DNA of 64,000 nt from Mesostigma viride. Lineage: Eukaryota > Streptophyta > Mesostigmatophyceae > Mesostigmatales > Mesostigmataceae. The position numbers and the translations under genes were made by a program. The DNA lies in NCBI GenBank assembly GCA_009746045.1, contig RPFO01000076.1:3484420-3548419 (forward strand). The letters run 5' to 3'. Positions 11,216 through 55,738 of this stretch are shown piece by piece (the stretch's first letter is position 1; every line of letters begins with the position of its first letter). The notes under the pieces are model-generated. The model had not been told where the DNA came from and made no database searches. It was given only the letters and a program-made list of their open reading frames with translations.

Positions 11216-12084
11216 GTATCTTTGATACATTGCATCATTTGCATGCCTTGGAGCTGCACGTCGTCAAGCAGTGTCACCCAGTTCCCGCTTGATTCAAATG
11301 CACTTCGCGCTTGAATTCGTGACTTCGCCCCGCTCAAGGTGGAAAGAATGATGGGCACTAGCCACGGGAACTATGCCCGATGCTGATAGCCGAAGCGATG
11401 ACATGGACGAATTGATTGATTTGTGTTATGCCGGGGACGATTGTAGAAAATGGGTGCTAGGAAAGAAATCTGGTGCCATGAAAGTAGATTTTTTGGCCGG
11501 TGCAAACCACCAATGCGCCGGCCGATGTGGCAAGGTCCTGCACGGCATCTGTACGCATATTTTCAGGCACGCAGACGACGGTGACGGCACGGAATGGCAA
11601 TGCTCTGACTGCGGCGGCCCTCCACGATGCCAGCCGTGCGCCACGCTCGAGCAGCCAGGGCACACTAGCAACATTAAGCCCACGGAGCCTTCCACTATCA
11701 GCCCAGAGTGCCCGGATGTTTCGTTTCGCACGCCCGTCACCGAGGATGACCTGACTTTCGATGATGATGGCGGTTGTGATGATGAAGCTGCAGGGGCAGA
11801 GGATGACTTCCATCATGATGGGGCTGCAAATGCGACAAACGAGAAAGATTCCGCGATGTCTCCTCAGCGTCCTGCCGACGAGCATGGTCATTCAAACCCG
11901 GGTTTGGGGCTGGACGCCACTAAGGAGGCTGTGTTCTTTTCCCCTCTACCTGAGGCCGGCGTTCCTGAAAAGCGGGACGATGGCACGCCGGTCCCTACTG
12001 CAAGCTCTTTTAGCCGCAGTGGACCGATGGCACTGTCTGTCGTGGAAATTTCTGGCTGGGATACCCTCGGGGTGGTGGGGGGGG

Positions 12085-13713
<1,629 letters not shown>

Positions 13714-19011: not shown

Positions 19012-22000
19012 TCACTCGCTGCCGGTGTTGAAGCACCGGTCCCCACAGTCACCTAGCCCTGGGATAATGAACCTGAATGAGCACGCACGGCATGCACAGC
19101 ATGTTTGTCGTCTCAGTTTATGAAACCAACAGGGCATAAGTCTGAGTGTAGCACCAAGGGGTGTGGGGTGTGTGGGGGGGAAGCCTTGCACTAAAATGCT
19201 GCCAAGAAAACCAAACAGGGAGTGAAGCCATAACAGTACACGGCATGTGTGTGTGCGGGGGAGGGGGGGGGGGGGGAAAGGAAGTAGAAAACAGGCGCGT
19301 AGCCCTACAGCACATAATGAGGGTAGACTGAGATGAAAGATGAAAGAATTGCACGGAGGCTGTCCTCCCATTTTCTTGTCATTGTGGCAGGATTCTGTAC
19401 TTGCAGACAATGTCCCCCCGTATTGGTGGACAAATACAATAGAAAAAAATAATAAAGAAGGAATAAGGCAGAAGGCAGAAGGAAGACGGGAGAAGGCAGA
19501 GGGCAGAGGGCAGAGGGCAGAAGGCAGAAGGCAAAAGGCAGAAGGCAGAAGGCAGAAGGAAGACGGGAGAAGGCAGAGGGCAGAGGGCAGAGGGCAGAGG
19601 GCAGAGGGCAGAGGGCAGAGGGCAGAGGGCAGAGGGCAGAGGGCAGAGGGCAGAGGGCAGAGGGCAGAGGGCAGAGGGCAGAGGGCAGAAGGCAGAAGAG
19701 GGCAGAGGGCAGAGGGCAGAGGGCAGAGGGCAGAGGGCAGAGGGCAGAGGGCAGAGGGCAGAGGGCAGAGGGCAGAGGGCAGAGGGCAGAGGGCAGAGGG
19801 CAGAGGGCAGAGGGCAGAGGGCAGAGGGCAGAGGGCAGAGGGCAGAGGGCAGAGGGCAGAGGGCAGAGGGCAGAGGGCAGAGGGCAGAGGGCAGAGGGCA
19901 GAGGGCAGAGGGCAGAGGGCAGAGGGCAGAGGGCAGAGGGCAGAGGGCAGAGGGCAGAGGGCAGAGGGCAGAGGGCAGAAGAGGGCAGAGGGCAGAGGGC
20001 AGAAGGCAGAAGAGGGCAGAGGGCAGAAGAGGGCAGAAGAGGGCAGAGGGCAGAGGGCAGAGGGCAGAGGGCAGAGGGCAGAGGGCAGAGGGCAGAGGGC
20101 AGAGGGCAGAGGGCAGAGGGCAGAGGGCAGAGGGCAGAGGGCAGAGGGCAGAGGGCAGAGGGCAGAGGGCAGAGGGCAGAGGGCAGAGGGCAGAGGGCAG
20201 AGGGCAGAGGGCAGAGGGCAGAGGGCAGAGGGCAGAGGGCAGAGGGCAGAGGGCAGAGGGCAGAGGGCAGAGGGCAGAGGGCAGAGGGCAGAGGGCAGAG
20301 GGCAGAGGGCAGAAGGCTGAAGGCTGAAGGCTGAAGGCTGAAGGCTGAAGGCAGAAGGCAGAAGGCAGAAGGCAGAAGGCAGAAGGCAGAAGGCAGAAGG
20401 CAGAAGGCAGAAGGCAGAAGGCAGAAGGCAGAAGGCAGAAGGCAGAAGGCAGAAGGCAGAAGGCAGAAGGCAGAAGGCAGAAGGCAGAAGGCAGAAGGCA
20501 GAAGGCAGAAGGCAGAAGGCAGAAGGCAGAAGGCAGAAGGCAGAAGGCAGAAGGCAGAAGGCAGAAGGCAGAAGGCAGAAGGCAGAAGGCAGAAGGCAGA
20601 AGGCAGAAGGCAGAAGGCAGAAGGCAGAAGGCAGAAGGCAGAAGGCAGAAGGCAGAAGGCAGAAGGCAGAAGGCAGAAGGCAGAAGGCAGAAGGCAGAAG
20701 GCAGAAGGCAGAAGGCAGAAGGCAGAAGGCAGAAGGCAGAAGGCAGAAGGCAGAAGGCAGAAGGCAGAAGGCAGAAGGCAGAAGGCAGAAGGCAGAAGGC
20801 AGAAGGCAGAAGGCAGAAGGCAGAAGGCAGAAGGCAGAAGGCAGAAGGCAGAAGGCAGAAGGCAGAAGGCAGAAGGCAGAAGGCAGAAGGCAGAAGGCAG
20901 AAGGCAGAAGGCAGAAGGCAGAAGGCAGAAGGCAGAAGGCAGAAGGCAGAAGGCAGAAGGCAGAAGGCAGAAGGCAGAAGGCAGAAGGCAGAAGGCAGAA
21001 GGCAGAAGGCAGAAGGCAGAAGGCAGAAGGCAGAAGGCAGAAGGCAGAAGGCAGAAGGCAGAAGGCAGAAGGCAGAAGGCAGAAGGCAGAAGGCAGAAGG
21101 CAGAAGGCAGAAGGCAGAAGGCAGAAGGCAGAAGGCAGAAGGCAGAAGGCAGAAGGCAGAAGGCAGAAGGCAGAAGGCAGAAGGCAGAAGGCAGAAGGCA
21201 GAAGGCAGAAGGCAGAAGGCAGAAGGCAGAAGGCAGAAGGAAGGAGGAAGAAAGAGCGAGGCTCATACCCCTTGTCGTTGACCTCTGAGTCTAGCATGGC
21301 TGCGTACACCCTCATCCTGCAGGGCAAAGGATGGCAACACAAACAGTAACAGGCAAGTCACTGCCAGACCCATATCAGCATCAATATGCGCGGTGTTGTC
21401 TGAAATGAACAGCATGAAACAAACTAAATAAGAAAGGGGATTTTATTCATTGGAAATGATTTTGGGGCGGGCTTGGAACTCCTATGACAGTGAATTGCAT
21501 CAAAATGCTGGAAGAAACACAAGCGTACGCAAACACACACACAGTGCCATGATTTCAAAGCATTTGATCCTGCTCATCTTATTCACCGGTCATCTTATTC
21601 ACTTACCCAGGGTACTTCTTGCTCATCTTGTTCAGCGCTGGCGGCGCCGCTAGGACCGAAATCTGAAGAAGCACAGCAGCACGTCACGATGAATGAAAGC
21701 AAAGACACATGCACCATTAATAATTACGTCTGATGAGACAGATGGCAGAGAACACGCAACCGCAAGGGGGCCGAAAGTATCCTTCATGCGAACGAATCAA
21801 ATCATGCTGACGTCGCCTTCATGCATGCGCACACATCCGCACACATCCGCCAATTTTTCAAGCGCTTGAGCATGCAGGCACCGTCAAGCCAGTCGCCCCC
21901 CTTCCCCCCCCCCATTTCTTCACACACAGATCCTGCGCCTCCCCCGCCCCCTTTCCCCCCCCCCTATTTCTTCACACACAGATCCTGCGCCTCCCCCGCC

Positions 22001-25000
22001 CCCTTCCCCCCCCCCTGCTGATGGTGCCTCACCACATACCTCCCCTAATAAGGCAGCGTAGTACACAGATCCCGCAACTGCTCTGTAACAGCGGACACAG
22101 ATCAGAGGCGAGCCAGTTGTGCCAGCGTAATCTAAAGGTAGTCCGCCACGTGTTGCCAGTCATCTATCTCGTTATCACATTTTGCCAGTCCGTTGACGTC
22201 ATCAGGGTACCCTGGCCGTACCACGCGGGGCAGTGGCGATACAACTGGTACTAGTATGGTAGTAGTATGAACATACTACACTAATATGATAGTAGTATAA
22301 ATCAGGCAATGGCATGAAATCAGGTACGGGCGTACCATGTGTAATTTGAAAATTGCTAGAAAAGGGCGTACCACGCGGATGTTCTTGGGGTTGCCACCTC
22401 GCGAGATCACCTCGTCCAACGCCATCATGATGGAGCCCCCTGCAGGGGCGGGGGGGGGAGGGGGACGGGGGAGGGGAACAACGACATGGGGTGATTAGGC
22501 CATGGCAAGCGTGCAGGCGAGTGTTGTACGAGACAACCAGCGCAGGCCGGAACTCAGTATGTTTTCATTCGCCAACATGCGTGCCTTTGCATGGCGTGAA
22601 TGCTGGCAAAGGCCAATTAGATAATAGGGACACCCCACGCTGCGGGTGCGCAGCTGGTCTCCCTGAACGGCCGATCCTGTTGGCCATATGCGGCATAAAC
22701 AAGCATCAACGCGCATGAACAAGATACCCACAAGTTAATACAGGGGCAGGTCACAACAAAAGCTTATACAGCGGCATGAACAAGATACCTCATAGCTACT
22801 ATACCGCAGGTCAACCCACATTTCATAGCAAACATGCAGCGGGGCGTAGTTGCAGCCAGCAGGAGCAAGGAGCCCGGACTCTTATTGCATCCAGAGGCCA
22901 AACACACGCTGCCTAGTCTGAACCCTATACTACAAGGGGATTCGCCAGATAAGCTGTTAAGGCCACAACTGCTACACATGGCAAGGCCGGCTGGCAACAC
23001 AACCATGGCAACGCACTGGGACGTAAGGTGCTCTCTTTCCAATAAAAAAGCTCCCGCGTCGCAAGCATGTGGTCTCCATGGCCACAGCCACCCACACCGC
23101 GCTCATGCCCTGTGCAGTTCCTATGCCTGGCATAAGAACTGCACAGGGCATGAGCGCGGTGTGGGTGGCTGTGTGAGTATGCCTACAACCAGATCGCGCT
23201 GATGCCCCGTGCTGATGCTATCACCGGCACTCACCGGTCGCCAGCATTGGGTCGCAGACGAGGATGATGTCCTTCTCCGAGAACGAGGGAGGCAGCCTGC
23301 GGGAGAAAAGGGGGAGGGGAGGGGAGGGGAGGGAGGGGAGGGGAGGGGAGGGAGGGGAGGGAGGGGAGGGGAGGGGAGGGGAGGGGAGGGGAGGGGAGGG
23401 GAGGGGAGGGGAGGGGAGGGAGGGGAGGGAGGGAGGGAGGGGAGGGGAGGGGAGGGAGGGGAGGGAGGGGAGGGGAGGGGAGGGAGGGGAGGGGAGGGGA
23501 GGGAGGGGAGGGGAGGGGAGCGAGCGAGAGAGCGAGAGAGTGAGAGAAGGGGGGGGGGGGGGGGAGTGTACCAGCCATGAAAAAAAGGGAGATAGGTAGA
23601 TAGATAATTAGATGTAAGAGGGGAGGCATTCTGCGGGGAGAGATGGGCGCGGGTGGGTGGGTGGGTGGGTGGGTGGGTGGGTGGGTGGGTGGGTGGGTGG
23701 GTGGTGGGTGGGTGGGTGGGTGGGTGGGTGGGTGGGTGGGTGGGTGGGCAGGTGGAGATACAGGATAGACCGCTTTTATTCAGATGCTGTAGCCCTTTTA
23801 GGCCATGCTTATTGCTTAAGGGGTCTCAAGGCCGGGGTTGAACACACACAGACACACAGAAAAGACAAGCGTTTGTGCCAATATAGCCCTTTCAAAATTC
23901 ACCTGCATCCATGCAGCCTCCACGTCATGCGTGTGGCGCGAGGCGCATGAGGTGGCAGGCGCGTAGATGCATTTTCAGCAAGGTGAGGGGCATGGTAGAG
24001 GAGAGACGCTCAAGGATGATGTGGCATGGACCTACCGGTTCAGGTACATGGATGGCTGCAGCGTCTTGTCGTCTCGGATAATGCCTGGCAAGCCCGCACA
24101 AAAGAACATGGCAGACAGGTGTATGCAAACGGCACAACGAGAGCAGTCGCCGCAGCATTTACTTAGAGAGCAGGCAACCCCGGATTGGAGTACAGGGGAT
24201 GCAGCCAGCTGTCTGCCAGGTGCACGGGAGCATAACACTCCTTGCCTAATACTAGCGTTTTAGAGAAACAAAGCAATTCTGCCGCCGTCATGGCGATGGT
24301 GGTTAAGACGCGCTTGGAAGAACCGATGCACCTACCAGCATAAGAGTGAGAGTACCTTGGTCGACCAGGAACATGACCGCCGACCATTGCAGTGTTTGCC
24401 ACCAAGAGCAAGAATCTTAGCTACCGCACACAACTCTTGGCATCAAATGTGGCCACCTCGTCACAGCCAAGCATCAAGATGGCAAGGAAAGGCGAGGCCA
24501 ACGAAAACAAGTGCGCCACAGCTCCAACATGGGCCCTCAAGCTTCCCTTCCACAGCGACCCATGGCCCACCTGCGTGCTTGGCCGGTGGACCTATACCGC
24601 GGGTCATCACAGGAATGGTGGGACCTTGGTCATCGTCAGGCTGTGACGGCTGTCCCTATTCATGTAAATACAGGCCACCGGACAGCTCACCTACGTGGTA
24701 CGTCTTGCACAGCGGCAATAATGTGTCGGTTTTCTCCAGCAGGGCCAGGCCCGCGCGCAGTATGGGCACCACCTGGGATGGGGGAGGGGTGATTGGCAAG
24801 GGGGTGATCGGTGGGACGGCGAAAAGAAGTCAGCAAGCCGGCCGACAGGCGCGCACATGACCTGGTGGAGCGGTGGCTCTGAAAACCTGCCAAAGGGTGT
24901 GTGCTCTGTGAGCGTATGTGCATGTGGGGAAGATATAAAGAGTGCGTGTGTGTGTGTGACCTAGAGGGTATCACTCTGGTATCACATTGAGAGAGTAGCA

Positions 25001-28000
25001 TCTGTAGAGAGAGTAGTATATAGCGATAGTATATAGAGACAGTGATCTCCTGCACTGGTGTAAAAGCTGACGATATTTACTGAACTGGGTGCCTCACTGG
25101 GTGCCTCATAAATTTCTTGTAGCGCTGTTCTATATTCCCTCTCTCTACATGCATGACCAACCGGGTGCGCCCCTAAAAAGTTATTCACAAACACTATTAA
25201 CAAAAAAGATATCGGCATTCCAGACTTTCAAGACATAGAGCTTTCGTTCTGTGCAAGACATAGAACACGGTAGAATGATCGAACATGCAACTTCATGGTG
25301 ACATCCGGAAGCACTGGCACATATGGGTTGGTAGACTTCTGAACCCTTCAAAACGCTGTCATGTCGATACATAATGCTTTATGTATCACCGCCAGATGAA
25401 CTCTATCAATAAACTGCATCAAGAAACCGCTAATTAAGCCGACCCTAGCCCCAGGACCCCAAAATTGTTACCACGTGTGGAGAGGCCGTGACTTCATCCA
25501 CACGATGGCTGAGGACGATGGGTGTCGGTAACGGTGAGAACCCAGTTGGATAGTAAGGCCTCACTTTGACGGACACGACATTCTGAGAAGCCACCTTCAC
25601 GGACACGGTGGGGTTGCCCACAACCTTTTACTCTTTGCGACCCGGTCGCGGCATGTAGACACCTCACTTTCACGGACACGGTGGGGTTGCCCACAACCTT
25701 TTACTCTTTGCGACCCGGTCGCGGCATGGAGACACCTCACCTTCACGGACACGGTGGGGTTGCCCACAACCTTTTACTCTTTGCGACCCGGTTGCGGCAT
25801 GTAGACACCTCACCTTCATGGTCACGGTGGGGGTTGCCCACAACCTTTTACTCTTTGCGACCCGGTCGCGGCATGTAGACACCTCACCTTTACGGACACG
25901 GTGGGGTTGCCCACAACCTTTGACTCTTTGCGACCCGGCTCGCGGCATGTAGACACCTTACCTTTACGGACACGGTGGGGTTGCCCACAACCTTTTACTC
26001 TTTGCGACCCGGCTTGCGGCATGTAGACACCTCACCTTCACGGACACGGTGGGGGTTGCCCACAACCTTTCACTCTTTGCGAACCCGTCGCGGAATGTAG
26101 ACACCTCACCTTCACGGGCACGGTGGGGTTGCCCACAACCTTTTACTCTTTGCGACCCGGCTCGCGGCATGTAGACACCTCACCTTCACGGACACGGTGG
26201 GGTTGCCCACAACCTTTTACTCTTTGCGACCCTGCTCGCGGCATGTAGACACCTCACCTTCACGGACACGGTGGGGTTGCCCACAACCTTTCACTCTTTG
26301 CGACCCGGTCGCGGCATGTAGACACCTCACCTTCACGGACACGGTGGGGTTGCCCACAACCTTTTACTCTTTGCGACCCGGCTCGCGGCATGTAGACACC
26401 TCACCTTCACGGACACGGTGGGGTTGCCCACAACCTTTCACTCTTTGCGACCCGGCTTGCGGCATGTAGACACCTCACCTTCACGGACACGGTGGGGTTG
26501 CCCACAACCTTTTACTCTTGGCGACCTGGTCGCGGCATGTAGACACCTCACCTTCACGGACACGGTGGGGTTGCCCACAACCTTTTACTCTTTGCGACCC
26601 GGCTTGCGGCGTGTAGACACCTCACCTTCACGGGCACGGGGGGGTTGCCCACAACCTTTCACTCTTTGCGACCCGGCTCGCGGCATGTAGACACCTCACC
26701 TTCACGGACACGGTGGGGTTGCCCACAACCTTTTACTCTTGGCGACCCGGCTCGCGGCATGTAGACACCTCACCTTCACGGACACGGTGGGGTTGCCCAC
26801 AACCTTTCACTCTTTGCGACCCGGCTCGCGGCATGTAGACACCTTACCTTCACGGACACGGTGGGGTTGCCCACAACCTTTCACTCTTTGCGACCCGGCT
26901 CGCGGCATGGAGACACTTCACCTTCATGGACACGGTGGGGTTGCCCACAACCTTTTACTCTTTGCGACCCGGCTTGCGGCATGTAGACACCTCACCTTCA
27001 CGGACACGGTGGGGTTGCCCACAACCTTTTACTCTTTGCGACCCGGCTTGCGGCATGTAGACACCTCACCTTCACGGACACGGTGGGGTTGCCCACAACC
27101 TTTTACTCTTTGCGACCCGGCTCGCGGCATGTAGACACCTCACCTTCACGGACACGGCGGGGTTGCCCACAACCTTTTACTCTTTGCGACCCGGCTTGCG
27201 GCATGTAGACACCTCACCTTCACGGACACGGGGGGGTTGCCCACAACCTTTTACTCTTTGCGACCCGGCTTGCGGCATGTAGACACCTTACCTTCACGGG
27301 CACGGTGGGGTAGCCCACAACCTTTCACTCTTTGCGACCCGGTCGCGGCATGTAGACACCACCTTCACGGACACGGTGGGGTTGCCCACAACCTTTCACT
27401 CTTGGCGACCCGGCTCGCGGCATGTAGACACCTCACCTTCACGGACACGGTGGGGTTGCCCACAACCTTTCACTCTTTGCGACCCGGCTCGCGGCATGTA
27501 GACACCTCACCTTCACGGACACGGTGGGGTTGCCCACAACCTTTGACTCTTTGTGACCCGGCTCGCGGCATGGAGACACTTCACCTTCACGGACACGATG
27601 GGGTTGCCCACAACCTTTTACTCCTTACGACCCGGCTTGCGGCATGTAGACACCTCACCTTCACGGGCACGGTGGGGTTGCCCACAACCTTTTACTCTTT
27701 GCGACCCGGCTCGCGGCATGTAGACACCTCACTTTCACGGACACGACATTCTGAGAAGCCACCTTCACGGACACGATGGGGTTGCCCACAACCCTTTACT
27801 CTTTGCGACCCGGCTTGCGGCATGTAGACACCTCACCTTCACGGACACGGAGGGATAGCCCACAACCTTTTACTCTTTGCGAACCCGTCGCGGAATGTAG
27901 ACACCTCACCTTCACGGGCACGGTGGGGTTGCCCACAACCTTTGACTCTTTGCGACCCGGCTCGCGGCATGTAGACACCTCACCTTCACGGACACGGTGG

Positions 28001-31000
28001 GGTTGCCCACAACCTTTTACTCTTGGCGACCCGGCTCGCGGCATGTAGACACCTCACCTTCACGGACACGGTGGGGTTGCCCACAACCTTTCACTCTTTG
28101 CGACCCGGCTCGCGGCATGTAGACACCTCACCTTCACGGACACGGTGGGGTTTGCCCACAACCTTTGACTCTTTGCGACCCGGCTTGCGGCATGTAGACA
28201 CCTCACTTTCACGGACACGGTGGGGTTGCCCACAACCTTTCACTCTTTGCGACCCGGCTCGCGGCATGTAGACACCTCACTTTCACGGACACGGTGGGGT
28301 TGCCCACAACCTTTCACTCTTTGCGACCCGGCTCGCGGCATGTAGACACCTCACCTTCACGGACACGGAGGGATAGCCCACAACCTTTTACTCTTTGCGA
28401 CCCGGCTCGCGGCATGTAGACACCTCACCTTCACGGACACGGTGGGGTTGCCCACAACCTTTTACTCTTTGCGACCCGGCTTGCGGCATGTAGACACCTC
28501 ACTTTCGCGGACACGGTGGGGTTGCCCACAACCTTTTACTCTTTGCGACCCGGCTCGCGGCATGTAGACACCTCACCTTCACGGACACGGTGGGGGTTGC
28601 CCACAACCTTTTACTCTTTGCGACCCGGCTTGCGGCGTGTAGACACCTCACCTTCACGGGCACGGGGGGGTTGCCCACAACCTTTCACTCTTTGCGACCC
28701 GGCTCGCGGCATGTAGACACCTCACCTTCACGGACACGGTGGGGTTGCCCACAACCTTTTACTCTTGGCGACCCGGCTCGCGGCATGTAGACACCTCACC
28801 TTCACGGACACGGTGGGGTTGCCCACAACCTTTCACTCTTTGCGACCCGGCTCGCGGCATGTAGACACCTTACCTTCACGGACACGGGGGGGTTGCCCAC
28901 AACCTTTGACTCTTTGCGACCCGGCTCGCGGCATGGAGACACTTCACCTTCACGGACACGGTGGGGTTGCCCACAACCTTTCACTCTTTGCGACCCGGCT
29001 CGCGGCATGTAGACACCTCACCTTCACGGACACGGCGGGGTTGCCCACAACCTTTTACTCTTTGCGACCCGGCTTGCGGCATGTAGACACCTCACCTTCA
29101 CAGACACGGTGGGGTAGCCCACAACCTTTGACTCTTTGCGACCCGGCTCGCGGCATGTAGACACCTCACCTTCACGGACACGGCGGGGTTGCCCACAACC
29201 TTTTACTCTTTGCGACCCGGTCGCGGCATGTAGACACCTCACCTTCACGGACACGGTGGGGGTTGCCCACAACCTTTCACTCTTTGCGACCCGGTCGCGG
29301 CATGTAGACACCTCACCTTCACGGGCACGGTGGGGTAGCCCACAACCTTTCACTCTTTGCGACCCGGTCGCGGCATGTAGACACCACCTTCACGGACACG
29401 GTGGGGTTGCCCACAACCTTTTACTCTTGGCGACCCGGCTCGCGGCATGTAGACACCTCACCTTCACGGACACGGTGGGGTTGCCCACAACCTTTTACTC
29501 TTTGCGACCCGGCTCGCGGCATGTAGACACCTCACTTTCACGGACACGACATTCTGAGAAGCCACCTTCACGGACACGATGGGGTTGCCCACAACCTTTT
29601 ACTCCTTGCGACCCGGCTTGCGGCATGTAGACACCTCACCTTTACGGACACGGTGGGGTTGCCCACAACCTTTTACTCTTTGCGACCCGGCTCGCGGCAT
29701 GTAGACACCTCACCTACACGGACACGGTGGGGTTGCCCACAACCTTTTACTCTTTGCGACCCGGCTGGCGGCATGTAGACACCTCACCTTTACGGACACG
29801 GTGGGGTTGCCCACAACCTTTTACTCTTTGCGACCCGGCTCGCGGCATGTAGACACCTCACCTTTACGGACACGGTGGGGTTGCCCACAACCTTTCACTC
29901 TTGCGACCCGGTCGCGGCATGTAGACACCTCACCTTCACGGACACGGTGGGGTTGCCCACAACCTTTCACTCTTTGCGACCCGGCTCGCGGCATGTAGAC
30001 ACCTCACCTTTACGGACACGGTGGGGTAGCCCACAACCTTTTACTCTTGCGACCCGGTCGCGGCATGTAGACACCTCACCTTTATGGACACGGTGGGGTT
30101 GCCCACAACCTTTTACTCTTGGCGACCCGGCTCGCGGCATGTAGACACCTCACCTTCATGGACACGGTGGGGTAGCCCACAACCTTTTACTCTTTGCGAC
30201 CCGGCTTGCGGCATGTAGACACCTCACCTTCACGGACACGGTGGGGTCCAGCGCCGTGACCTCTGCCAGCCCGCACGGGGTCTCCACTTGGCCCGTGATG
30301 GTTGCCTGCGATGGTGACCAGTGCAAGTAGGGAACAGCAATGTGCCCACCCCACAAGCAGATGCCACGCAGGTCAGGTCAATGAAAAGAGCCCTGTCCTG
30401 AGTGTTAGCATTTCATCTTCGGTGTTAGCACTGGCTAATATATCAACGTTAGCATCTGCACTAGTTGTCGGGTTGAGAGTTGAAAAATCAGGGTTGACAG
30501 CTGAGAATACATTTTACATGGCGGCGACTCTCTCTTAAGCAGCTGACAGAGCCTGCCGCCATTTTCTAACCCGACCACAACCCCCCCAACATTCCCATTT
30601 AAATAGGGGAACCCCTGCCTTTCATTAGCTTAGCCATATGCTGACGATTTAATTTCTCAAATCACCCAGGCACCACCCTGGCCGAGAGGTATGCATGTGA
30701 GGAGAAGGACACAGCCTCAAGATGGACAGGAAGGCAGCGGACCATGCGAGGCAGCACGCTTGACCTCCTTTGCCGCCTTGTGGCTAGTACGAGCACAGCC
30801 TGCACGCGCCACACCTCAACGATAGACGATGTAAGAGCCACACATCACCAATGACTGTTCAAGCGCCACACATCAAATATAAACATTCGAGCGCCACACC
30901 TCAAATATGAACATTCGAGCGCATACACATAAACCCACCAGCAGGTCCCGCGTGGCTTCGTAGATGAGGATGTGGCCGAGCTCCGCGATCGCGCCACCTG

Positions 31001-34000
31001 TCCACACACAGCGGTTGCCAGCAGCGCGCCCAGTCTCGCACGCTCCGCGTCGTGAATACATGGACTACTTGACAAACATGGCAAGGTACATCGCTGGGTG
31101 CATTGTGAGCTCACGCTGTGAGCAACTGCAAACAAAAAGTCCATACAAAATGATCAACAAACTGAAAGCTAATACTAGCCATCATGCACACATCCTTGGG
31201 GGCAGCACCATCAATCAAGTGCGATGCAATCGACTGTTGGCATTTGAACGCACGCATTGATGAATCGAAAGATTTATGAAAAGTCAAGGTTGACGTGTCA
31301 TTATCAACAGTCACGGCCATCTCGGCCGAGGAGGAGGACTGAAAAAAACAGGAAAAAAAAAAAACGGGGACAAATATCAGGGGTCCGAGGTCTGCAACCC
31401 ACCTGACCCACTCCATACCACACGCAGCCACGCACCCGCTGACTCGAAACAGGAAATGAAATGAACTTGGTGTTGAGCCTGTGTCTGGGCATGCCCACGC
31501 GCGCACTGTCCCTGCGTCACACCACCTACAGTCTCCTGGCCATGCGTATGCGCGCACGCGTCCCCTCTCTCCTGGCCATGCGTATGCGCGCACACGTCCC
31601 CTCTCTCATGCCACCTGGGCCACGTGTGCACGCTTGCCCTCTCTCATGCCACCAGGGCCACGCGCGCACGCTTGCCCTATCTCATGCCACCGGGGCCACC
31701 CGCACACGCTTGCCCTCTCTCACGCCACCAGGGCCACGTGCGCACACTTGCCCTCTCTCATGCCACCGGGGCCACGCGCGCACGCTTGCCCTCTCTCATG
31801 CCACCGGGGCCACGCGCGCACGCTTGCCCTCTCTCATGCCACCTGGGCCACACGCGCACGCTTGCCCTCTCATGCCACCTGGGCCACGCGCGCACACTTG
31901 CCCTCTCTCATGCCACCAAGGCCACGCGCGCACGCTTGCCCTCTCTCATGCCACCGGGGCCACGCGCGCACACTTGCCCTCTCTCATGCCACCTGGGCCA
32001 CACGCGCACGCTTGCCCTCTCTCATGCCACCTGGGCCACGCGCGCACGCTTGCCCTCTCTCATGCCACCGGGGCCACGCGCGCACGCTTGCCCTCTCTCA
32101 TGCCACCAGGGCCACGCGCGCACGCTTGCCCTCTCATGCCACCTGGGCCACGCGCGCACGCTTGCCCTCTCTCATGCCACCTGGGCCACACGCGCACGCT
32201 TGCCCTCTCTCATGCCACCAGGGCCACGTACGGAAGACAGAGGAGGGCGTCTGCTTGTTGCGCGCGACGGCCACCCAGTGCTGGATGAGGGGGTGCGGCG
32301 GCACGATCACCTGCATGGGTGGGGCACGCGTGGTGGGATGACGCAGCAGCGGGTCGGGCACGCTCAGGGGTAGGCATCCGGGTGGGTTGTGTCTGTGCAT
32401 GCAAGTTTAGGCCGTATGGCCGTGCATGCGCACAGGTGTGGCTGATGGCGAATCACCGTGCCCATATGGGTGATAGTTCCTCGCGACGCCACGCCATGCC
32501 ACCATGATGACGATGACAACCACAAGACAAAGGCATCGCAAGCATACGAGATCGAGATCGATGGCAGTTGCAAGGGCAACGGCAATGGCACTCCTCGTGC
32601 AAGGATGCCCCAAAAGAACGCCAGACTGTGATTGCGACGTGCTCCCGTTGACGAGACAGGAGAGAACCGCCCCCATATTTCAGAGAGAACATTGCTAACA
32701 GGGGCCCATCTCAAGCAACGCGAGAAGGGCAACCGGTACGTTGCCACGTGTCCACGTTGGGAGGGCACACGTGAGGGCCGTGGCGAGGTGCCCAGACCAC
32801 AGGCTGAGCGCACCCACTCTGCCAAGCGCGCAGCAACAGGGTGCGGCCCCCCTACCCTGTCACTGGCGCACCCCTTATCCTGTCATGGCCGCCCCCCCTT
32901 TCCAGTCATGGCCGCCTCCCCTTGCTGTCATGGGGACCTCTTTCACCAACAGGGCGATGAGCGCCCGCACGAATACTGGCAACCCAGGACGGGGCCACCA
33001 GGGACAGGGGCCTTGCGTTTACCCAGCGACAATCATGAGAAGAGATGAGATAAAAGCCTCCATCGTCCTTGGTACACCGTGGCGCGGTCGCAATAATTAG
33101 TTAAATTTTTCCTCAGCAAGCAAATCGATTATCAAGAATGAATATCAAGCGAACCAAACCATGGACAGCTGGCCGGAGGGCTACTGACCCTCGGTGTGCA
33201 GCCCCTCAGCAGGCAGCCCTGGCCTTGTGCAAGTGGCATGGTGTCATACGCGCAGCAGTGTGCCGTATGCACGGCAGCTAACACCTACTGCCGTCATTGC
33301 TAATGCCATCAGGCTCATTACAGGAACATATGCAAGTGCATTTTCTTGCGAGGGCAATGTCAGGCAATTCAATAAAGCATCTGGCCTTGATTAGTCTGAT
33401 AACCACACAATCTATCTTCACAAGACGCAAATGTGCAGCATCCTACGATGCTCACGTCTCTGCAATGTGCTGCATGGCAACCACTAGACGGGATACCCAC
33501 AGCAACAACCCCTTCGTCTGGCACGAGCACGAATGCGGAATAGACACACCACGTTCGGTACCTACGTCAGCAATCACAACCAGGCCCGACCAACTTCAGT
33601 AACCCTATTTGCACTAGCCCAACTTTGCGAAAGAAAGCGCGCGACTGGCCCAGCCCCTCATGCACGTTGCCGATGAAATGCAAAGGAGGGCTTGAAAGCG
33701 CTGGAGGGGGCTTGAAAGCGGGGAAGAAAGAGACTGATGGGTGGGGTTTGGGGATGGGGAGAGGAAGAAAGGCTATTTCTTATTTATGAATCTAGGAATA
33801 TGTGGTTCCGGGTGGCGCCTCACCAGCATCTGCGACGACTTGGTGGGGTCGGTCACCGCGGCCTTGGTCGAGCCTGCCTGGCTCAGCACCCTGGTCAGGC
33901 CCAGGGGCTGGGACGAGCGGTACGGGCCGGACCAATTGAGCGCCTCACCGAACATGATGCGCCGCGACTGGGATGGGTCATGTGCAGCAAACAATCGATG

Positions 34001-38580: not shown

Positions 38581-39340
38581 CCTCCCACCCCACCCATCCC
38601 ACCCACCCACCCACCTGCCCCCCACCCACCCCACCCACCCACCCAAACAAACAAACAAACAAACAAACAAACAAACAAACAAACAAACAAACAAACAAAC
38701 AAACAAACAAACAAACAAACAAACAAACAAACAAACAAACAAACAAACAAACAAACAAACAAACAAACAAACAAACAAACAAACAAACAAACAAACAAAC
38801 AAACAAACAAACAAACAAACAAACAAACAAACAACCTGCCCCCACCCCCCCATCCCCACCCCCCCACCCACCTGCCCCCCACCCCACCCACCCCACCCAC
38901 CCCACCCACCTGCCCCTCACCCCGTCTGACCCCCACCCACCCACCCACCCACCCGCCGCCGCCCGCCCGCCCGCCGCCCGCCCGCCGCCCGCCCGCCCGC
39001 CCGCCCGCCGCCCGCCCGCCCGCCCGCCCGCCGCCCGCCCGCCCGCCCGCCCGCCCGCCCGCCCGCCCGCCCGCCCGCCCGCCCGCCCGCCCGCCCACCC
39101 GCCCGCACACCCACCCACCCCGCCCGCCCGCCCGCCCACCCACCCCACCCACCTCACCCAACCCACCCACCCCACCCAACCCACCCAACCCACCCAACCC
39201 ACCCAACCCACCCACCCACCCACCCACCCACCCAACCCACCCACCTGCCCCCCACCCCACCCACCCCACCCACCTGGCCCCCACTCCGTCTGACCCCCCC
39301 AACTTGCCCCGCCTTGCCTGCCCCCACTGACCCCAACGCC
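38581..39340. repeat. compound microsatellite: CCCA, (AAAC)n, CCCG, CCCA blocks
   Basis: C-rich CCCACCC units (38581-38640) are followed by a nearly pure (AAAC)n run of about 48 units (38641-38833), then CCCAC blocks, a CCCGCCCG block (about 38953-39132) and CCCAACCCACC units. It ends just before a pyrimidine-rich CCTCACCAG that is a good splice acceptor for the plus-strand exon at 39353. All open frames on both strands inside it are artefacts. Confidence 0.9.
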
Positions 39341-43135: not shown

Positions 43136-44590
43136 CCGGGGGAAACACGATAGCGTGCGTAGACGTCCGTCAGGTTAGAATGACCAGTTCCCCCTCCCAC
43201 TTAACCCTCGATAATGTGCATCTGAACGCAAATGGTTTCACTATTTGCGGCGTGCCAAATCAGAATGTTCGCTACTCTGATTCCTGATCATCCACGCCAT
43301 CAAGAGTTTTTAAGGGGACGGTCCCGGCGCGTATATTTTGGCGCCGAAAAATTCGCGGTACCCGTCCGTACCGTGAAAAAGTGGTGCACGGGGCGCGCAC
43401 CCCTACCGGAGCTGGCCATGGCGACGTGCTTTCAGGCAGAGTAGAAAAAGATAGCTCGCGGAATGCAGAGAAACTGAGCGAATCTTAAAGACGATGAGTA
43501 AATGATACTACTTCGTAGCGGAGTTCGCGTTTTTTGCAGTGTCGATGATTTTATTGATGACCATCGCCACGGGGGTCCAATCTGATGTTTTCGTCGAGAG
43601 GAATAAATTAGAATGCACGCTGGCGGCGGTGATTGTCAGGTTTTATGGGCTTTACCTAGCGTCAAGGATGCGTTTAAATTGTTATTGGTAAAGCTTTAAA
43701 ATATTTGATGGGTTTCGGCAAGATTTCCGTCATGATCGGTAAGACACTCTCCAGGCTCGCGGGATGCGCGTCTTATTATTCCATGGAAGGTTGTTCTTTC
43801 TTGCGCCGCTGGGCGAAGGACAATTCCGGTAATGGTACGATCGTGTGATCAACGTGACCCTATGGATGTTTCGCTTCCTTTATGGGTTATCAACGCAAGT
43901 TTTCGGCGTGAACCCAACTTAAGGCGTGAATGATTCTACTAAATTCTACTAATTTGAATTAAAGATACTCAAACATACTATTCTGAACTACTTTGAACTT
44001 GGAATGCCGAAACCCTATATGACCCGTGAACACAACTTAAGCCAACCCAACTTAAGGCGTGAATGCCTGTACTTTTTCACGTGAAACGTGAGTTCCAGAA
44101 ATGCACGACCTAGCCATGGCGGCTTTCGCCCATGCATGCAGTTTACGTTTGCGGACGATTTAGCATTTTAGCTGGTAAAACTCAGGAAATAGATTTTATA
44201 TGTCCTAAAGATGACACAAGCCAATTTTTAGCTCGTGGGGATGTGATGTTACGGCCCTAACCCATGTTTGGGCGATTTACCAGGTTTCGGCACCGCTCTT
44301 GCTGGTAAAAACTGCGACCAGGCAGGTTGACGGAATTGATGACTAAATTTGCTCTACGGTGCAGTTCGAAGGGTTTATATGCTTCTTTCTACTTATTATC
44401 ATGCATGTGTGTAGAATTAAGTCAGTGGCAGTAAAGATTTGATGATTTCGACCACTCTGTCATGTCATGTGTGTGCCGCAAGTGTCACTTTTGCGGGCAC
44501 CGCCTGGGCCAAGATAACGCCATCCATGCATGGTAAATGATGATTGTGCACGCCTAGCTCATAATATAGTCCACCATAATGATGAAATCG
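43136..44590. other. intergenic; decayed DNA-transposon end at 44069
   Basis: No certain gene. 43281-43444 (plus) encodes RVYFGAEKFAVPVRTVKKW, which resembles a helix-turn-helix of the kind seen at the N-terminus of pogo-type transposases (weak). At 44020-44071 the minus strand reads TACAGGCATTCACGCCTTAA and continues like the 34.8-kb element's end, flanked by TA. This is probably the end of a related, diverged element. Confidence 0.4.
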
Positions 44591-45630
44591 GAATGTGGCA
44601 AGGTTGTGTCCTGTCCCCATACCTGTTCATTATTGTCGTGGATCACGTCATGCGCCGGGCACGTGCGCGCTTTACTGCTCTTAAGGGGTTCGAGCCCGGC
44701 TTGGACATCCTTAACGAGCGCGGGCACGGCGGGGTTAGCACGGGTTACCGCCTGGCTGACCTGATTTATGCGGACGACACCACCCTCATCGCGCGCCCCG
44801 AGCACATTCAGACCTGGCTGGACTGTCTGGGCCTGGAGGCGAGGGCGGTGGGGTTGGAGATTAGTGTCAAAACTGAGGCGATGGTGATTGGGGCCTCCAG
44901 TCGTCCACCGCTACCGCGCCTGCTCGACGGGACGGAGGTCCCATTCCGCGACCGCTTCAAGCTGTTGGGGAGTTGGCTTCCTGACACTGCCGACGATGTG
45001 GACACCCGCATCGGCCTTTCCTGGGCCAAGCTCCGTTCGCTCACCACCTACTGGCGCTCCAAGGGCCTGGACGAGCACCGCAAGCGCATGCTCTTTAAGG
45101 TCCTCGTCCTCACGGTGCTCACGTATGGCGCCGAGGCATGGACACTCACGGCAACACTGGCAGCCAAGCTAGACGCCACGGTAATCCGGATGCTCCGACA
45201 GGTCCTGAATGTCGGGTTTTCTCAGCGTAGGTCATTAGAGTCTTTGTATCACGGTATGCCTCGTATTTCGGATGAGATTAGGCAGCGTAGGATAGCATTT
45301 GTAGGACATCTTGCTCGCACCAGCCAGGTCGACACCGCCCTTGGTCTGGCCGGTCCCCAGCGGCTCGGCCAACCAGGGCGGCATATTTTGACCTGGCCTG
45401 GCCCCAAGAACATTCCTAAAAAGGTAGGGAAACATGCCATGACCTATACCCAGATGTTGCTGGACGACCTAGTGGTCCCAGCCCAGTTTGAGTACCGCAT
45501 CCACTCTCTCTCCCGTCTTTGGACTGCCATGCAGGACAAGACGCGGTGGAAGAAGATTGTCAAGGCGCACACGCCAGCCCCTGTGGGCAAGCCGCCTCCC
45601 CCCAAAAGGAGGAGCCGTTTTGATGAGTAG
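44530..45630 (+). pseudogene. 5'-truncated LINE reverse transcriptase, copy 1
   Basis: The open frame holds the C-terminal two thirds of a non-LTR reverse transcriptase. MWQGCVLSPYLFIIVVDHVM opens the conserved part, followed by LADLIYADDTTLIARP (catalytic YADD), GLEISVKTEAMVIG, FKLLGSWLP (thumb), LTYGAEAWTL, RRIAFVGHLARTSQVDT, and a Trp-containing C-terminus ending in PVGKPPPPKRRSRFDE. Homology begins abruptly at about 44590, inside the motif before YADD, so fingers and endonuclease are missing. The 3' region after the stop (GCGGCTTCCTCCACACCACC, then ATGTGCTACATGATCTCCCA) recurs after copy 2. No frameshift in what remains, suggesting fairly recent insertion. Confidence 0.8.
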
Positions 45631-45742
45631 CGTAGATAGGCTTTTCTAGACTAGATATAGCTTAGAGTTAGGTTAGTTCGATTACGCGGCTTCCTCCACA
45701 CCACCCATCCAACCTGGAATATGTGCTACATGATCTCCCACG

Positions 45743-46312
45743 GTGCTTGTTATAATAGATAGACATGTTATCATGCTTGGCATGATCGTCCTCACGGTGC
45801 TCACGTATGGCGCCGAGGCGTGGACCCTCCCACCCAAACTGGCAGCTCGGCTCGACGGCACAGTTTACAGGATGCTCCGGCAGGTCCTTAATGTAGGTTT
45901 TTCCGAGCGTCCGTCATCAGAGTCTCTGTATCATGGCATGCCTCGTGTTTCGGGCGAGATTAGGCAGCGTAGGATAGCATTTGTAGGACACCTTGCCCGC
46001 ACCAGCCAGGTCGACACCACCCTTGGTCTGGCCGGCCCCCAGCGGCTTGGACAGCCAGGGCGGCACATTCTGACCTGGCCTGGCCCCAAGGACATTCCCA
46101 AAAGGGTAGGGAAACCTGTCACCAACTACGTTCAGATGTTGCTGGACGACCTAGTGGTCCCAGCCCAGTTTGAGCACCGCATCCACTCTCTCTCCCGTCT
46201 TTGGACTGCCATGCAGGACAAGACGCGGTGGAAGAAGATTGTCAAGGCGCACACGCCCGACCCTGTGGGCAAGCCACCTCCCCCCAAGCGGAGGAGGCGT
46301 TTTGATGAGTAG
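45743..46312 (+). pseudogene. 5'-truncated LINE, copy 2, C-terminal domain only
   Basis: From about 45786 the sequence is homologous to copy 1 from LTVLTYGAEAWTL to the C-terminus (...KPPPPKRRRRFDE), with about 5-10% nucleotide differences by eye. It follows the 3' tail of copy 1 directly, in the same orientation, so the two insertions are head-to-tail. Confidence 0.75.
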
Positions 46313-46483
46313 TGTAGTTAGGATTTTCTAGATAGAGTTAGGATAGTTCGATCACGCGGCTTCCTCCACCCCATCCATCATGAAATATGTGCTACATGAC
46401 CTCCCCACGGAGGCATGTTATAATTTAATTTAATTTAATGATCTCCCAACGGAGACATGTTATAATTTAATTTAATTTAATTT
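46313..46483 (+). repeat. LINE 3' tail with (TTTAA)n ending
   Basis: Shared 3' UTR followed by two blocks of TATAATTTAATTTAATTTAA separated by ATGATCTCCCAACGGAGACA. The short AT-rich tandem tail is the expected end of a target-primed insertion. Confidence 0.65.
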
Positions 46484-46485
46484 TA

Positions 46486-46797
46486 ATGCATGGTAAAGCT
46501 GAAATATCGTTACCTCATCATTTCTTGATGTTCTTACATGAGTTTAAGCTTGCAAGTCGCTGTCAGTTTCGAATCTTGATGCGCTTTCTTGACCGTTGCC
46601 TGCTGCCCCTCTCTAACCCCCCCTTTTTTGATGATGTTACCAGGCATTTGCCTTACCCTACAAGTGTACTTTTGCAGCTTTTTAGGCGCTGTGTGGGTTT
46701 AAATACCTTCATAGATGTTAGTTATTCTTTTGCTACGTTCATACTGCGTGATTTTATGGCCATGGGCTGCATCAAGCTTGCTTTCAAGCTTATACGG
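46486..46797 (+). CDS. possible host exon, unknown protein
   Basis: About 104 codons beginning MHGKAEISLPHHFLMFLHEF, with a natural hydrophobic/helical composition (SVLLQLFRRCVGLNTFIDV, LRDFMAMGCIKLAFKLI), ending at GTGAGT (46799), a strong splice donor. A possible following exon near 46870-47017 reads RACRYLVRVFESFRMMKMNG. The start ATG overlaps the LINE tail, so it may be an internal exon. I do not recognise the family. Confidence 0.3.
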
Positions 46798-47216
46798 GTG
46801 AGTGAAGAATCTTGGTGGTGATAAACCACTGTCATCATGTGCCTGCAAGTATCAAGGAGACAACCAGCGTAGGCCAGAAATCGGGAGAATCCGGACCATG
46901 GTAGCTCGAGCCTGCCGTTATCTTGTCCGCGTGTTCGAGTCGTTCAGGATGATGAAGATGAATGGTGATGGAAATGCGTATCTTTGTGCATTGAAATTAT
47001 GGCTGGCTTACGTGTAGAGCGACTAGATGACCTAGACGGTGGGGCCGGAGACAGCATGCTTGATCAGGGCGTGTGTTTCGAGCCTAACTGGCCGGGAGTG
47101 TCTAGTGGTGAGCACCATTGCTGCGATCGCTCTCCCACCATTTACGAGGATTAATACCCGCAAATGGAAAACCACTGAAAAGGTAGCTAGTCAGTCATCA
47201 CGTTAGCCATGCCATG

Positions 47217-47565
47217 ATTCCAAACGTCCAAGAACTGCACACGGTGCAAAGGCAAAAAGCCGGAGGACAGCACTTTCAAATGTGCGGCAGGAACCAAAAG
47301 CCCGCAGATGCCAGAAAACATCGTGTTGCTGCAGCGACGCGACGATGTGCATGGACAACGAATCCAGTGCCAAGCTCGGAACGGCCGCAAAGGAGATCTG
47401 GCATCACAGGGTTCAGATGTGCGGAGATACTATGCGATCCAGCCTGTCCACGACCTGTTTGTAGAGCTTGTGCCAAGGGGCAGCACCGAACAGATGTGGG
47501 TGACGTTGCAAAAAACATCGGACTTGACGGAGCATAATGTCTCGGTCATAGTCTTTGACCAATAA
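47217..47565 (+). CDS. possible exon with CxxC motif, unknown protein
   Basis: A plus-strand frame reads FQTSKNCTRCKGKKPEDSTF, continues MPENIVLLQRRDDVHGQRIQ and ends VSVIVFDQ at TAA 47565. A CxxC pair and a third Cys suggest a small metal site. A stop lies just upstream, so any start must be by splicing. Composition is protein-like, but evidence is thin. Confidence 0.25.
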
Positions 47566-47569
47566 ACGC

Positions 47570-48125
47570 TGCAAGAGTTCACGCCTGCAAGTATGTTGGC
47601 CATGCCATGGCAAGGCATAACAGTGTTAGCCATCTCTATTCTTGTTAAAAACAAGTGAAATATGCTTAACCTACCCATGATACTTGTGGTTAAGGCTTCA
47701 TAGGCTCTCACACATATACTAAGGTAATACAACTGCATTATGATGATGCAAGTCTGTTGTCCTGTTATGCTAGAAGGGAAATGAGTTGATTGGCATGGTT
47801 GGTTGCCACGGTGGTGTGTAGTATGACCGCACTTACATGCTTGCACATAATTTGCTAGCAACCTCGAAACCCATTCTTAGGGCTGATGGTTTTTGGTGAG
47901 TTTCAGGTAGACTAAGCTGTGGCCAAATTGAGCCCAGTTTTTTGCCATGTTTCAACAACTATATTGTTTACATGCCTATATTTTTTCAACATGCATATGG
48001 ATTTTATTGAATTTCCCAACTCGTCCTTCCACAGAAAATTGCCAAATCGCGAGTATGGGTTGACACCCTTGTAGAATTTTACATTATTTGGTCAACATAT
48101 GATTTTTTAGGCATATGCCCAAGCA
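47570..48125. other. AT-rich intergenic stretch, no gene seen
   Basis: No domain-bearing frame, repeat array or RNA gene was recognised. Confidence 0.4.
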
Positions 48126-48150
48126 TTAGCATTACTTTCTTGAGTTTTCG

Positions 48151-49469
48151 CATGATGCTGTACAAGAACAAGGGGTCGCCAGCCGACCCCGGCAACTAGA
48201 GAGGGGTGTGCATTCAAAGCGCCCCCCTCAAGCTTCTCATGCGGCTCATCCTGAACCGCCTGCGCACGGCCCTGGACGCTCACCTCAGCGAGACTCAGCA
48301 CGGCTTCCGTTCAGGTCGCAACACAGTACAGGCGCTCTTCGCTATACTCGCCGACTTGTGGAGGAACTGCAACGCCTTCAGCCTAGCTGGTGAGTCCCCT
48401 TTGCACCTTGTGCTGGTGGACTTCATCAAAGCCTTCGATTCGGTTTTTTGGCCTGCGCTTTGGGACATCCTCGAGCTGTTCTGGATCCCCCGCCCCCTTA
48501 TTGCTGTCATCCGCAACCTGTATGAAGGGTCCACCACTTCTGGTGCGCACTTCTTACGGGACCACGCCACCATGCCCTTTACAGAAGGGTGTGTGGCAGG
48601 GTTGCGTGCTGTCGCCCTACCTGTTCATTATTGTGGTCGAATACGTAATGATTCAGGCGCGCAAGCGATTTGCCCGCATCGTGGGTAGGGAACCAGGGGT
48701 GCATGTTGCTAACCACTTCTGGCATGGTGGAGCGGAAACGGAGATTCGTTCGGCTGGCAGAAATCATCTACGCAGACGACACCACCCTCTTCAAGGACAC
48801 TGGGCACGTGCAGACATGGATTGACTGCCTGGCGCTATCGAGGCCCATGCAGTGGGGCTTGAGGTCAGCAAGAAGACAGAGGCCCTGGCGGTTGGGCTCA
48901 CCCACTCACCGCCACCCCTCTATCTCCTAGACGGCTCTCGAGTCCCGTTATCGGGACCGCGTCAAGCTGCTGGGCAGCCTGCTTCCCAGCTGCGAGGTTG
49001 ATGTGGACCATCGCATCTCCCTCGCCTGGCACGCTTTAATTACGCCAGTACCGGGCCCTGTGGCGCAAGCCCCTGGGCAGCAAGATCCAGAAACAGGACC
49101 TGTCCTCGACTCCTCGTCCTTCCTGTTCTCACGTATGGGGCCGAGACGTGGACCCTCACCGCCGACCTGGCCCGCAAGCTGGACGGCGCGGTCACCAACA
49201 TGCTGGGCTCCATTTTCAGAGTAGGATATGCTGCTCATGTCCGCAATGAGGACATGTACCACGGCATGCCATATAGATCACCAGCGGCGCCTGCAGCTCG
49301 TAGGGCACATAGCTCGCACCAACCAGGTAGACACCTCACGGGGCCCCCCCGCGGGACTGCGACCAGCTCAGCCTGGCCCGGCTGGCCGGCACCTCCTGAC
49401 GTGGGCCGGGCCCCGTGATGTTAGACGCCGCAAGGCCCGCACCTTCAAAGAACAGCTAGTAGAGGACAT
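48151..49469 (+). pseudogene. decayed LINE interrupted by the LTR retrotransposon (5' part)
   Basis: RMMLYKNKGSPADPGN followed by a stop opens the RT homology, then GVCIQSAPLKLLMRLILNRL, TQHGFRSGRNTVQALFAIL and LVDFIKAFDSVFWPALWDIL. After a frame change come GVWQGCVLSPYLFIIVVEYV and, in a third frame, LAEIIYADDTTLFKDTGHV. The C-terminal domain (LVGHIARTNQVDTS ... FKEQLVED) runs into the LTR retrotransposon at 49470 and resumes at 57106-57255. Several frameshifts and a nonsense codon show it was dead or dying. Same family as the copies at 16.7-18.3 and 44.5 kb. Confidence 0.75.
49465..49469 (+). repeat. 5-bp target-site duplication GACAT, left copy
   Basis: GACAT lies immediately before the left LTR and again immediately after the right LTR (57106-57110). 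Removing the element and one GACAT restores an uninterrupted LINE reading frame across the junction. Confidence 0.85.
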
Positions 49470-49938: not shown

Positions 49939-49956
49939 TGAATTTTATTTGCTACC

Positions 49957-55733: not shown

Positions 55734-55738
55734 ATCTG

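Follow-up and report, generated by a model that had tools for sequence, protein, structure and literature searches.

Each of the internal repeats of Epstein-Barr virus carries exons. The human polyubiquitin gene UBC is built of head-to-tail units bounded by AG|GT, which in principle provide both a donor and an acceptor, and its copy number is shaped by repeat expansion (PMC10809524). The array described here appears to share both features, but while the UBC units are coding, 228 nt long, in frame and end in CAG, the present ones are intronic, mostly 74 nt long, end mostly in AAG and would be only candidate splice sites. Duplication of a segment spanning an intron-exon border, splice signals included, has been described for intron gain in a potato RdRp gene, where, according to the part of the report available, a single acceptor-side duplication led to a new intron (PMC4974935). 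The segment duplicated here at the exon-intron border likewise contains splice signals (20 exon nt and the intron start), whereas it is present in about 62 donor-side copies inside an intron. Tandem arrays crowd intron ends in the green algae Chlamydomonas and Volvox, which is reminiscent of the four arrays discussed below; the units in that survey are of 1-50 bp, and the available part of it does not describe arrays copying a junction (PMC3887541). Symmetrical stwintrons are also complex introns with donor-side complications, but as presented in the accessible text they are nested and have terminal inverted repeats (PMC8469720), while the repeats in the present case are direct and in tandem, with no significant RNA structure. 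Minisatellites of earthworms sit in introns as well, with no junction copies described in the sections available (PMC12783039). Among the titles and opening lines of abstracts listed from the open literature, a direct precedent for a junction-copying repeat in a cellular intron was not found, which is no proof of absence. A search with the junction 26-mer gave no matches in viral_contigs and genome_contigs, both of which are poor places for a eukaryotic repeat.

The array and its host gene

The host gene lies on the minus strand, with exons E2 to E12 and the stop codon at 19012..33967 (the start of E2 being provisional) of the window, i.e. the whole 64-kb stretch of DNA that was analysed. Its spliced frame runs uninterrupted to the stop and matches PF14681 over 206/206 positions (Pfam, E 2.9e-65), which identifies it as a uracil phosphoribosyltransferase (UPRT); a PDB search with the E3-E9 part also returned UPRT matches (best E 9.8e-28). 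The gene is eukaryotic and belongs to uracil salvage. The exon borders follow from the frame, the fit to the family and the GT/AG rule taken together. All 11 placed acceptors are CAG, a count that this way of placing them makes partly circular, and the acceptor of E2 is outside the Pfam match. Exon 5 (in the E2-E12 numbering; 30228..30305, minus strand, 78 nt, 3' end ACCCCACCGTGTCCGTGAAG) was placed by the continuous frame and PF14681; it is in frame with the UPRT family and needs the first donor of the intron that follows. This intron 5-6 (24773..30227, minus strand, 5455 nt, GTGAGG...CCCAG) has a predicted donor and acceptor, both placed from the uninterrupted UPRT frame, and leads to exon 6 (24691..24772, minus strand), which is supported by the frame, the PDB alignments and PF14681.

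The preliminary description had reported an array of about 60 units in this intron, starting at the true donor and derived from the exon 5/intron 5 boundary, and all three points are borne out. Sequence, TRF and segmentation give 62 units with 63 junctions at about 25565..30247 (minus strand); the first 40-mer copy, at 30208..30247 (minus strand), is the true exon 5/intron 5 junction according to the frame and the 40-mer match, so that the true donor is the first of the 63 exon/intron-type junctions; and what is repeated is the intron start together with the 20 nt at the 3' end of exon 5. The end of the array is 792 nt from the acceptor of exon 6. With head-to-tail units in the 10-100 bp range and variant copies (94% matches in the TRF 74-bp rows), the array has the make-up of a minisatellite. 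According to the segmentation, 47 of the 62 units are of 74 bp, the others being of 73 (six), 72 (two), 71 (two), 75 (two) and 103-104 bp (three), and in 58 of the 62 the length is not a multiple of 3. The three long units are those with a 30-bp insert, of which two copies are internal (29536..29565, consisting of GTGGCTTCTCAGAATGTC and a second copy of GTGTCCGTGAAA, and 27733..27762, placed by segmentation) and one is terminal (25565..25594, all on the minus strand). The terminal copy ends in GTCAAA, and the next junction continues into the unique intron sequence GTGAGGCCTTACTATCC, which may represent the start of the intron as it was before the expansion. The number of junctions was obtained from 66 raw matches, after removing three inside the insert and moving three by 1 or 2 nt.

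Every unit carries a copy of the junction, as had been claimed, but the copies are not identical throughout: the exact 40-mer is present 21 times, and the donor 9-mer AAG|GTGAGG at 46 of the 63 junctions, the remaining types being AAA|GTGAGG (7), AAG|GTAAGG (4), AAG|GTGAAG (3), AAG|GTGGTG (2) and TAG|GTGAGG (1). GT is retained at all 63 junctions and AG|GT, the unit border of a dual-specific array, at 56 of them, while 7 of the 62 unit ends lack AG. The junction-spanning 32-mer has 60 matches at ≤3 mismatches (0.00 expected from 100 shuffles), all of which, within the window, fall inside the array; introners (transposon-borne introns) would have copies scattered over different genes. The intron does contain dozens of donor-like sites, as the preliminary description stated, since 51 of the 59 AGGTRAG motifs on the whole minus strand of the window are located in the array.

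Choice among the 63 donors

Scoring of all 63 junctions as donors, a check which the preliminary description had called for, gave the same score (3.91) for 46 of them, donor 1 included, and a higher one for five. As donor 1 does not score above the decoys, strength alone cannot select it. The trinucleotide CAG occurs at 1.29 per kb in the array (6 in 4663 nt), about 11-fold below the 14.5 per kb of the remaining gene sequence, and three of these six belong to TTCTCAG in the insert units, the only CAG found in more than one unit. Since the placed acceptors are CAG, and the array units mostly end in AAG with CAG being rare, a CAG acceptor on the other side of an exon is available to the first donor alone. 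In large introns, the preferred 5' splice site is the one with the shortest distance, over the exon, to the 3' splice site, as stated in the available part of the source (PMC9225289). With pairing across the intron, on the other hand, the advantage should lie with the last decoy, at 792 nt from the acceptor, and not with the first donor, at 5455 nt, which speaks against the choice of donor 1. The locus has the features of a natural experiment of a kind difficult to construct: in a single gene, 63 nearly identical donors, spaced mostly by 74 nt, face the same acceptor, and donor usage would tell whether the choice is governed by exon definition, by the order in which the sites are transcribed or by their distance from the acceptor. 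Only the first of the 63 donors, joined directly to exon 6, yields an intact enzyme. Useful isoforms from the decoys are not supported by the frame: when any of the other 62 donors is connected straight to exon 6, an in-frame stop results, caused in every case by one stop located at the border of units 1 and 2.

A different outcome would follow if the units were self-removing modules (dual-specific or recursive splicing), with GT...AG units being cut out stepwise later and the exon 5-exon 6 junction restored. After the choice of a decoy, complete segments would at first remain upstream of exon 6, and the array would be harmless by construction. Most units are indeed GT...AG segments, because the period spans one AAG|GT to the next, and the counts of AG|GT and GT at the junctions are in agreement with this reading, as are the pyrimidine content before the consensus AAG (0.69, inside the placed-acceptor range of 0.50-1.00), the best unit-end acceptor score (7.02, where placed acceptors range from -6.53 to 12.71 with a median of 1.74), and the splicing of tandem dual-specific AGGT sites in human UBC (PMC10809524). 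It is nevertheless unlikely, considering the AAG at most unit ends compared with CAG in 11/11 placed acceptors, the unit ends without AG, and the fly recursive segments, nearly all of which were found to be >1 kb in the part of that study available (PMC6110457).

The same acceptor preference bears on the proposal that the array supplies alternative exons, either a 30-nt in-frame microexon per unit (the preliminary description had proposed one for several units) or, in the units with the insert, a microexon of 18 nt that follows TTCTCAG. Of the 55 pattern-matched segments, 51 are of 30 nt and 33 encode one same 10-residue peptide, and TTCTCAG does provide the recurrent CAG mentioned above. The acceptor of the 30-nt microexon would however be AAAG and not CAG; the segment shows no clear excess of conservation over the remainder of the unit (varying columns 11/29 compared with 14/39), one copy contains a stop and four are of 31 nt; and two UPRT PDB alignments show no insertion of 6-10 residues at this site. 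Alternative exons are highly unlikely.

Function, origin and growth of the array

No sign of function was found in the array when donor conservation, RNA folding, poly(A) motifs and decoy-exon 6 joins were examined. The idea that the donor copies are kept for a purpose is not reflected in their conservation between the units of the array, as the donor columns do not differ from the rest of the unit; recursive splice sites would be expected to exceed their surroundings in conservation, which is a matter of comparison between species as well. In the raw test, positions -3..+6 of the donor are variable in 7/9 columns compared with 23/65 elsewhere (p = 0.026), which is more variable and not less, but two of these seven columns vary only through alignment gaps, caused by a deletion of 2 nt that does not touch the GT, and without them the result is 5/9 (p = 0.29). 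An RNA hairpin hiding the donors was considered and rejected, as the consensus unit reaches -21.5 kcal/mol with z = -0.48 (equalled by 55/200 shuffles) and no special structure is seen for the first unit (z = 0.31). The same applies to a special fold as DNA (z = 0.53 for the consensus unit and -0.38 for the first unit). A search of Rfam gave no matches at gathering scores.

These results bear on the possibility of a U1 snRNP landing array, in which tandem donors would hold U1 on the nascent RNA and either slow splicing as decoys or prevent premature polyadenylation. The density of donor motifs (51 AGGTRAG in 4.7 kb) is in favour of it, and the consensus donor pairs with the U1 end at 7/11 positions, within the 5-9 of the other donors of the gene. 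Protection from early polyadenylation, which had been put forward earlier, is not supported: there are neither TGTAA nor AATAAA in the array or its 792-nt tail. This is mild evidence, because the frequency in the other introns (two TGTAA and two AATAAA in 8715 nt) predicts no more than about one for the array. In addition to the lack of conservation of the donor columns, the donors are predicted to be mostly paired (median open probability 0.0007 for the later ones and 0.0044 for the first, with a regional median of 0.0022), and a U1 landing array is very unlikely.

Most likely, the array is an accidentally expanded repeat that does no harm. The sequence points to a minisatellite which probably took up the junction and expanded through unequal exchange, and which would be tolerated since exon definition picks donor 1. 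A tandem duplication, evident from sequence identity, took in the end of exon 5 (20 nt) and the intron start. Since exon 5 encodes part of the aligned UPRT sequence, copying presumably went from exon to intron. Expansion to 62 units then probably proceeded by slippage or unequal exchange, in part through the copying of whole blocks of some 27 units: the mean difference between units is 3.31 at lag 27 compared with 3.83-4.69 at the other 43 lags, and the longest run of units differing by ≤1 column is 4, compared with a shuffled maximum of 3 (60 shuffles), which supports but does not prove such blocks. At a looser cut (≤2 differences) the test fails, with a run of 5 and a shuffled maximum of 6. 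The same pattern bears on the assembly. Long tandem arrays are prone to misassembly, and the true array might be far shorter or longer; simple over-assembly of one unit would, however, not give both scattered variants among the units and lag-27 blocks, and we regard an artefact as highly improbable. The tolerated minisatellite would have no selected function, and the spliceosome would keep to the first donor, favoured by exon definition and first-come co-transcriptional recognition because the 78-nt exon 5 has a CAG acceptor just upstream while the decoys are nearly without CAG nearby. The GT present at 63/63 junctions could hint at constraint and thus against mere tolerance, although the whole unit varies little.

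Donor-adjacent arrays in other introns

Four of the nine arrays in the introns of the UPRT gene begin ≤20 nt from a donor. Besides the one in intron 5-6, TRF places a 36/38-bp array in intron 3-4 (31532..32228, beginning 3 nt past the donor), a 28-bp array of 2.6 copies in intron 4-5 (30858..30930, 8 nt past the donor) and a 7-bp array of about 255 copies in intron 11-12 (19456..21252, 16 nt past the donor), all on the minus strand. The placement was tested with array ends set by hand (25565-30247), and then again with TRF ends at four score thresholds; depending on the threshold, P is between 5e-5 and 0.0014, post hoc. This placement is a new observation here, and resembles the trend published for green algae, as far as the available part of that survey goes (PMC3887541). 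It raises the question of why tandem repeats in this gene start at 5' splice sites. One answer would be a self-healing intron, in which any number of GT...AG steps restores the same exon junction and most of the roughly 60 donors are harmless, so that such arrays grow at donors genome-wide; we find this quite improbable. The presence of four donor-adjacent arrays in one gene is cited alongside that reading. A Pfam search with 20 of the 212 filtered open reading frames of the window gave matches for five: RVT_1 (two), RVT_2 (under the cut-off), DDE_Tnp_1_7 and TFIIA (just above the cut-off).

The UPRT gene and the array in intron 5-6

The gene coding for uracil phosphoribosyltransferase (UPRT) lies on the minus strand of the window, running from ~34.0 to ~19.0 kb. 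Its 11 placed exons, E2-E12, form a single open frame that stops at 19012. Their borders, which were set by eye according to frame, family fit and GT/AG, comprise 10 donors with GT and 11 acceptors with CAG. The model begins at E2, whose start is unplaced, and the first exon(s) lie outside it. The joined peptide covers 206/206 positions of PF14681 (E 2.9e-65), while its E3-E9 part alone matches this family with an E of 1.9e-42 and UPRT structures with a best E of 9.8e-28.

Intron 5-6 (30227 to 24773, minus strand, 5455 nt) is occupied by the array from the true donor of exon 5 (donor 1) down to 25565, which leaves a 792-nt tail. The segmentation gave 62 units and 63 junctions, in agreement with the preliminary description of some 60 units beginning at the real donor; the junction set corresponds to 66 raw matches minus 3 located within a 30-bp insert, with three others moved by 1-2 nt. 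Of the units, 47 are 74 bp long, 6 are 73, 2 each are 72, 71 and 75, and the three insert-bearing ones are 103-104 bp. The repeated junction joins the final 20 nt of exon 5 to the initial bases of the intron, and a 32-mer spanning it has 60 matches with up to 3 mismatches, against 0.00 expected. The claim that every unit carries a copy of this junction holds for the GT, which is kept at 63/63 junctions, but not for exact identity, as the exact 40-mer occurs 21 times and the donor 9-mer AAG/GTGAGG is found at 46/63 junctions. AG precedes the GT at 56/63. On the entire minus strand of the window, 51 of the 59 AGGTRAG motifs are inside the array, and the plus strand contains 8.

Donor choice among the repeated junctions

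Using a matrix built from the nine other donors of the gene, donor 1 scores 3.91; since 45 other junctions score equal and 5 score higher, donor strength cannot single it out. It is the upstream neighbourhood, not strength, which sets donor 1 apart from the 62 decoys (the other donor-like junctions). The CAG acceptor of exon 5 is located 78 nt upstream of it, and CAG occurs 6 times in 4663 nt of array (1.29 per kb), compared to 14.5 per kb in the remaining gene. The UPRT acceptors as placed have CAG in 11/11 cases, a count which is partly circular as AG was a placement criterion. According to the available text of a study of alternative splice-site use, the 5' splice site preferred in large introns is the one with the shortest distance across the exon to the 3' splice site, and in short introns the one with the shortest distance across the intron (PMC9225289). 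Taken with the nearby acceptor and the scarcity of CAG in the array, this rule suggests that donor 1 is used via exon definition, in which case the spliceosome would take donor 1 and ignore the decoys. Splicing any of the 62 decoys to exon 6 would lead to a stop ahead of exon 6; all such joins would meet the same stop, at the border of units 1 and 2, and it therefore counts as one fact, not 62.

The nearest known system, judging from the available part of its description, is human UBC, in which splicing at tandem dual-specific AGGT sites removes or keeps units (PMC10809524). As in UBC, most units of the array are themselves GT...AG segments, so stepwise removal, each step being self-restoring, would be possible in principle. 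That it could occur as a routine is argued against by the units ending in AAG, by the same shortage of CAG, and by the loss of AG at 7/62 unit ends.

Growth of the array and tests for function

In their variant patterns, units lying 27 units apart resemble each other most, with a mean difference of 3.31 (vs 3.83-4.69 for the other 43 lags tried). When the unit order was shuffled 60 times, runs with at most one differing column reached 3 units (4 observed) and runs with zero differences 2 units (3 observed), while at two differences or fewer the observed run of 5 is below the shuffled maximum of 6. Growth of the array partly by duplication of ~2 kb blocks is thus supported, though not proven. 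The 30-bp insert is present at the far end of the array and in two inner units, with spacings of ~1.8 and ~2.2 kb. The far end reads GTGTCCGTCAAA-GTGAGG-CCTTACTATCC, followed by unique sequence, and may be the original intron start. The nearest origin story, judging from its available text, is a tandem duplication across an intron-exon border in potato (PMC4974935).

Within this one genome, the array gave no apparent sign of function. Constraint on the donor copies finds no support, as donor columns are not less variable from unit to unit than the remainder (5/9 vs 23/65, p = 0.29, two gap columns excluded); with gap columns kept, 7/9 are variable (p = 0.026, in the direction of more variability). 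The 30-nt in-frame microexon previously suggested finds no backing in conservation, which is not clearly above that of the rest (11/29 vs 14/39 variable columns). RNA folding of one unit is no better than shuffles (z -0.48). Neither TGTAA nor AATAAA occurs in the array and its tail, which says little alone because the other UPRT introns hold just 2 of each in 8715 nt.

Repeats beside donors and other features of the window

Of the nine TRF arrays in UPRT introns, four overlap a donor or begin no more than 20 nt from one (at -20 nt in intron 5-6, 3 in 3-4, 8 in 4-5 and 16 in 11-12), and among these four only the intron 5-6 array extends into the exon. Random placement within the same introns reaches four with P = 5e-5, in a test conceived post hoc, after data inspection. 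Repeating it with TRF ends at differing thresholds gave P values of 0.0014 (19 arrays), 0.00026 (11), 0.00012 (9) and 0.00006 (8). Acceptor-adjacent arrays amount to 1/9 (P 0.25), or 3/19 with the most permissive threshold (P 0.011). The donor-adjacent arrays agree with a survey whose available text describes repeats as concentrated at intron ends, most of all in its two green algae (PMC3887541).

A 7-bp array (19456-21252, ~255 copies, plus-strand AGAAGGC) starts 16 nt past the donor and occupies most of the last UPRT intron. The 5-bp array at 23311-23524 seems to form the polypyrimidine tract of exon 8, since it is pyrimidine-rich on the gene strand and stops 14 nt short of the acceptor. Intron 8-9 carries a 45-bp inverted repeat (98%, arms 1 nt apart, 23083-23173), around which a 121-nt stretch has an RNA fold of -103.6 kcal/mol (z = -14.2); it has no match in Rfam and might represent either the precursor of a small RNA or what remains of a short transposon.

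Elsewhere, a TFIIA alpha/beta-like ORF (12014-13613, 36.9 bits, cut-off 36.2) contains a long CAG-repeat stretch and a candidate donor GTGAGT at 13525, with another array 25 nt on, at 13550. A GC-rich array of ~104-bp units (17 copies in the main row) is found at 6410-8309, and a CAAA microsatellite (47.8 copies, 100% match) at 38644-38834. Reverse transcriptase (RVT_1) pieces at 44518-45627 and 48200-48685, RVT_2 at 52128-55730 (under its cut-off) and a DDE_Tnp_1_7 transposase ORF at 57969-60050 together span 44518-60050.
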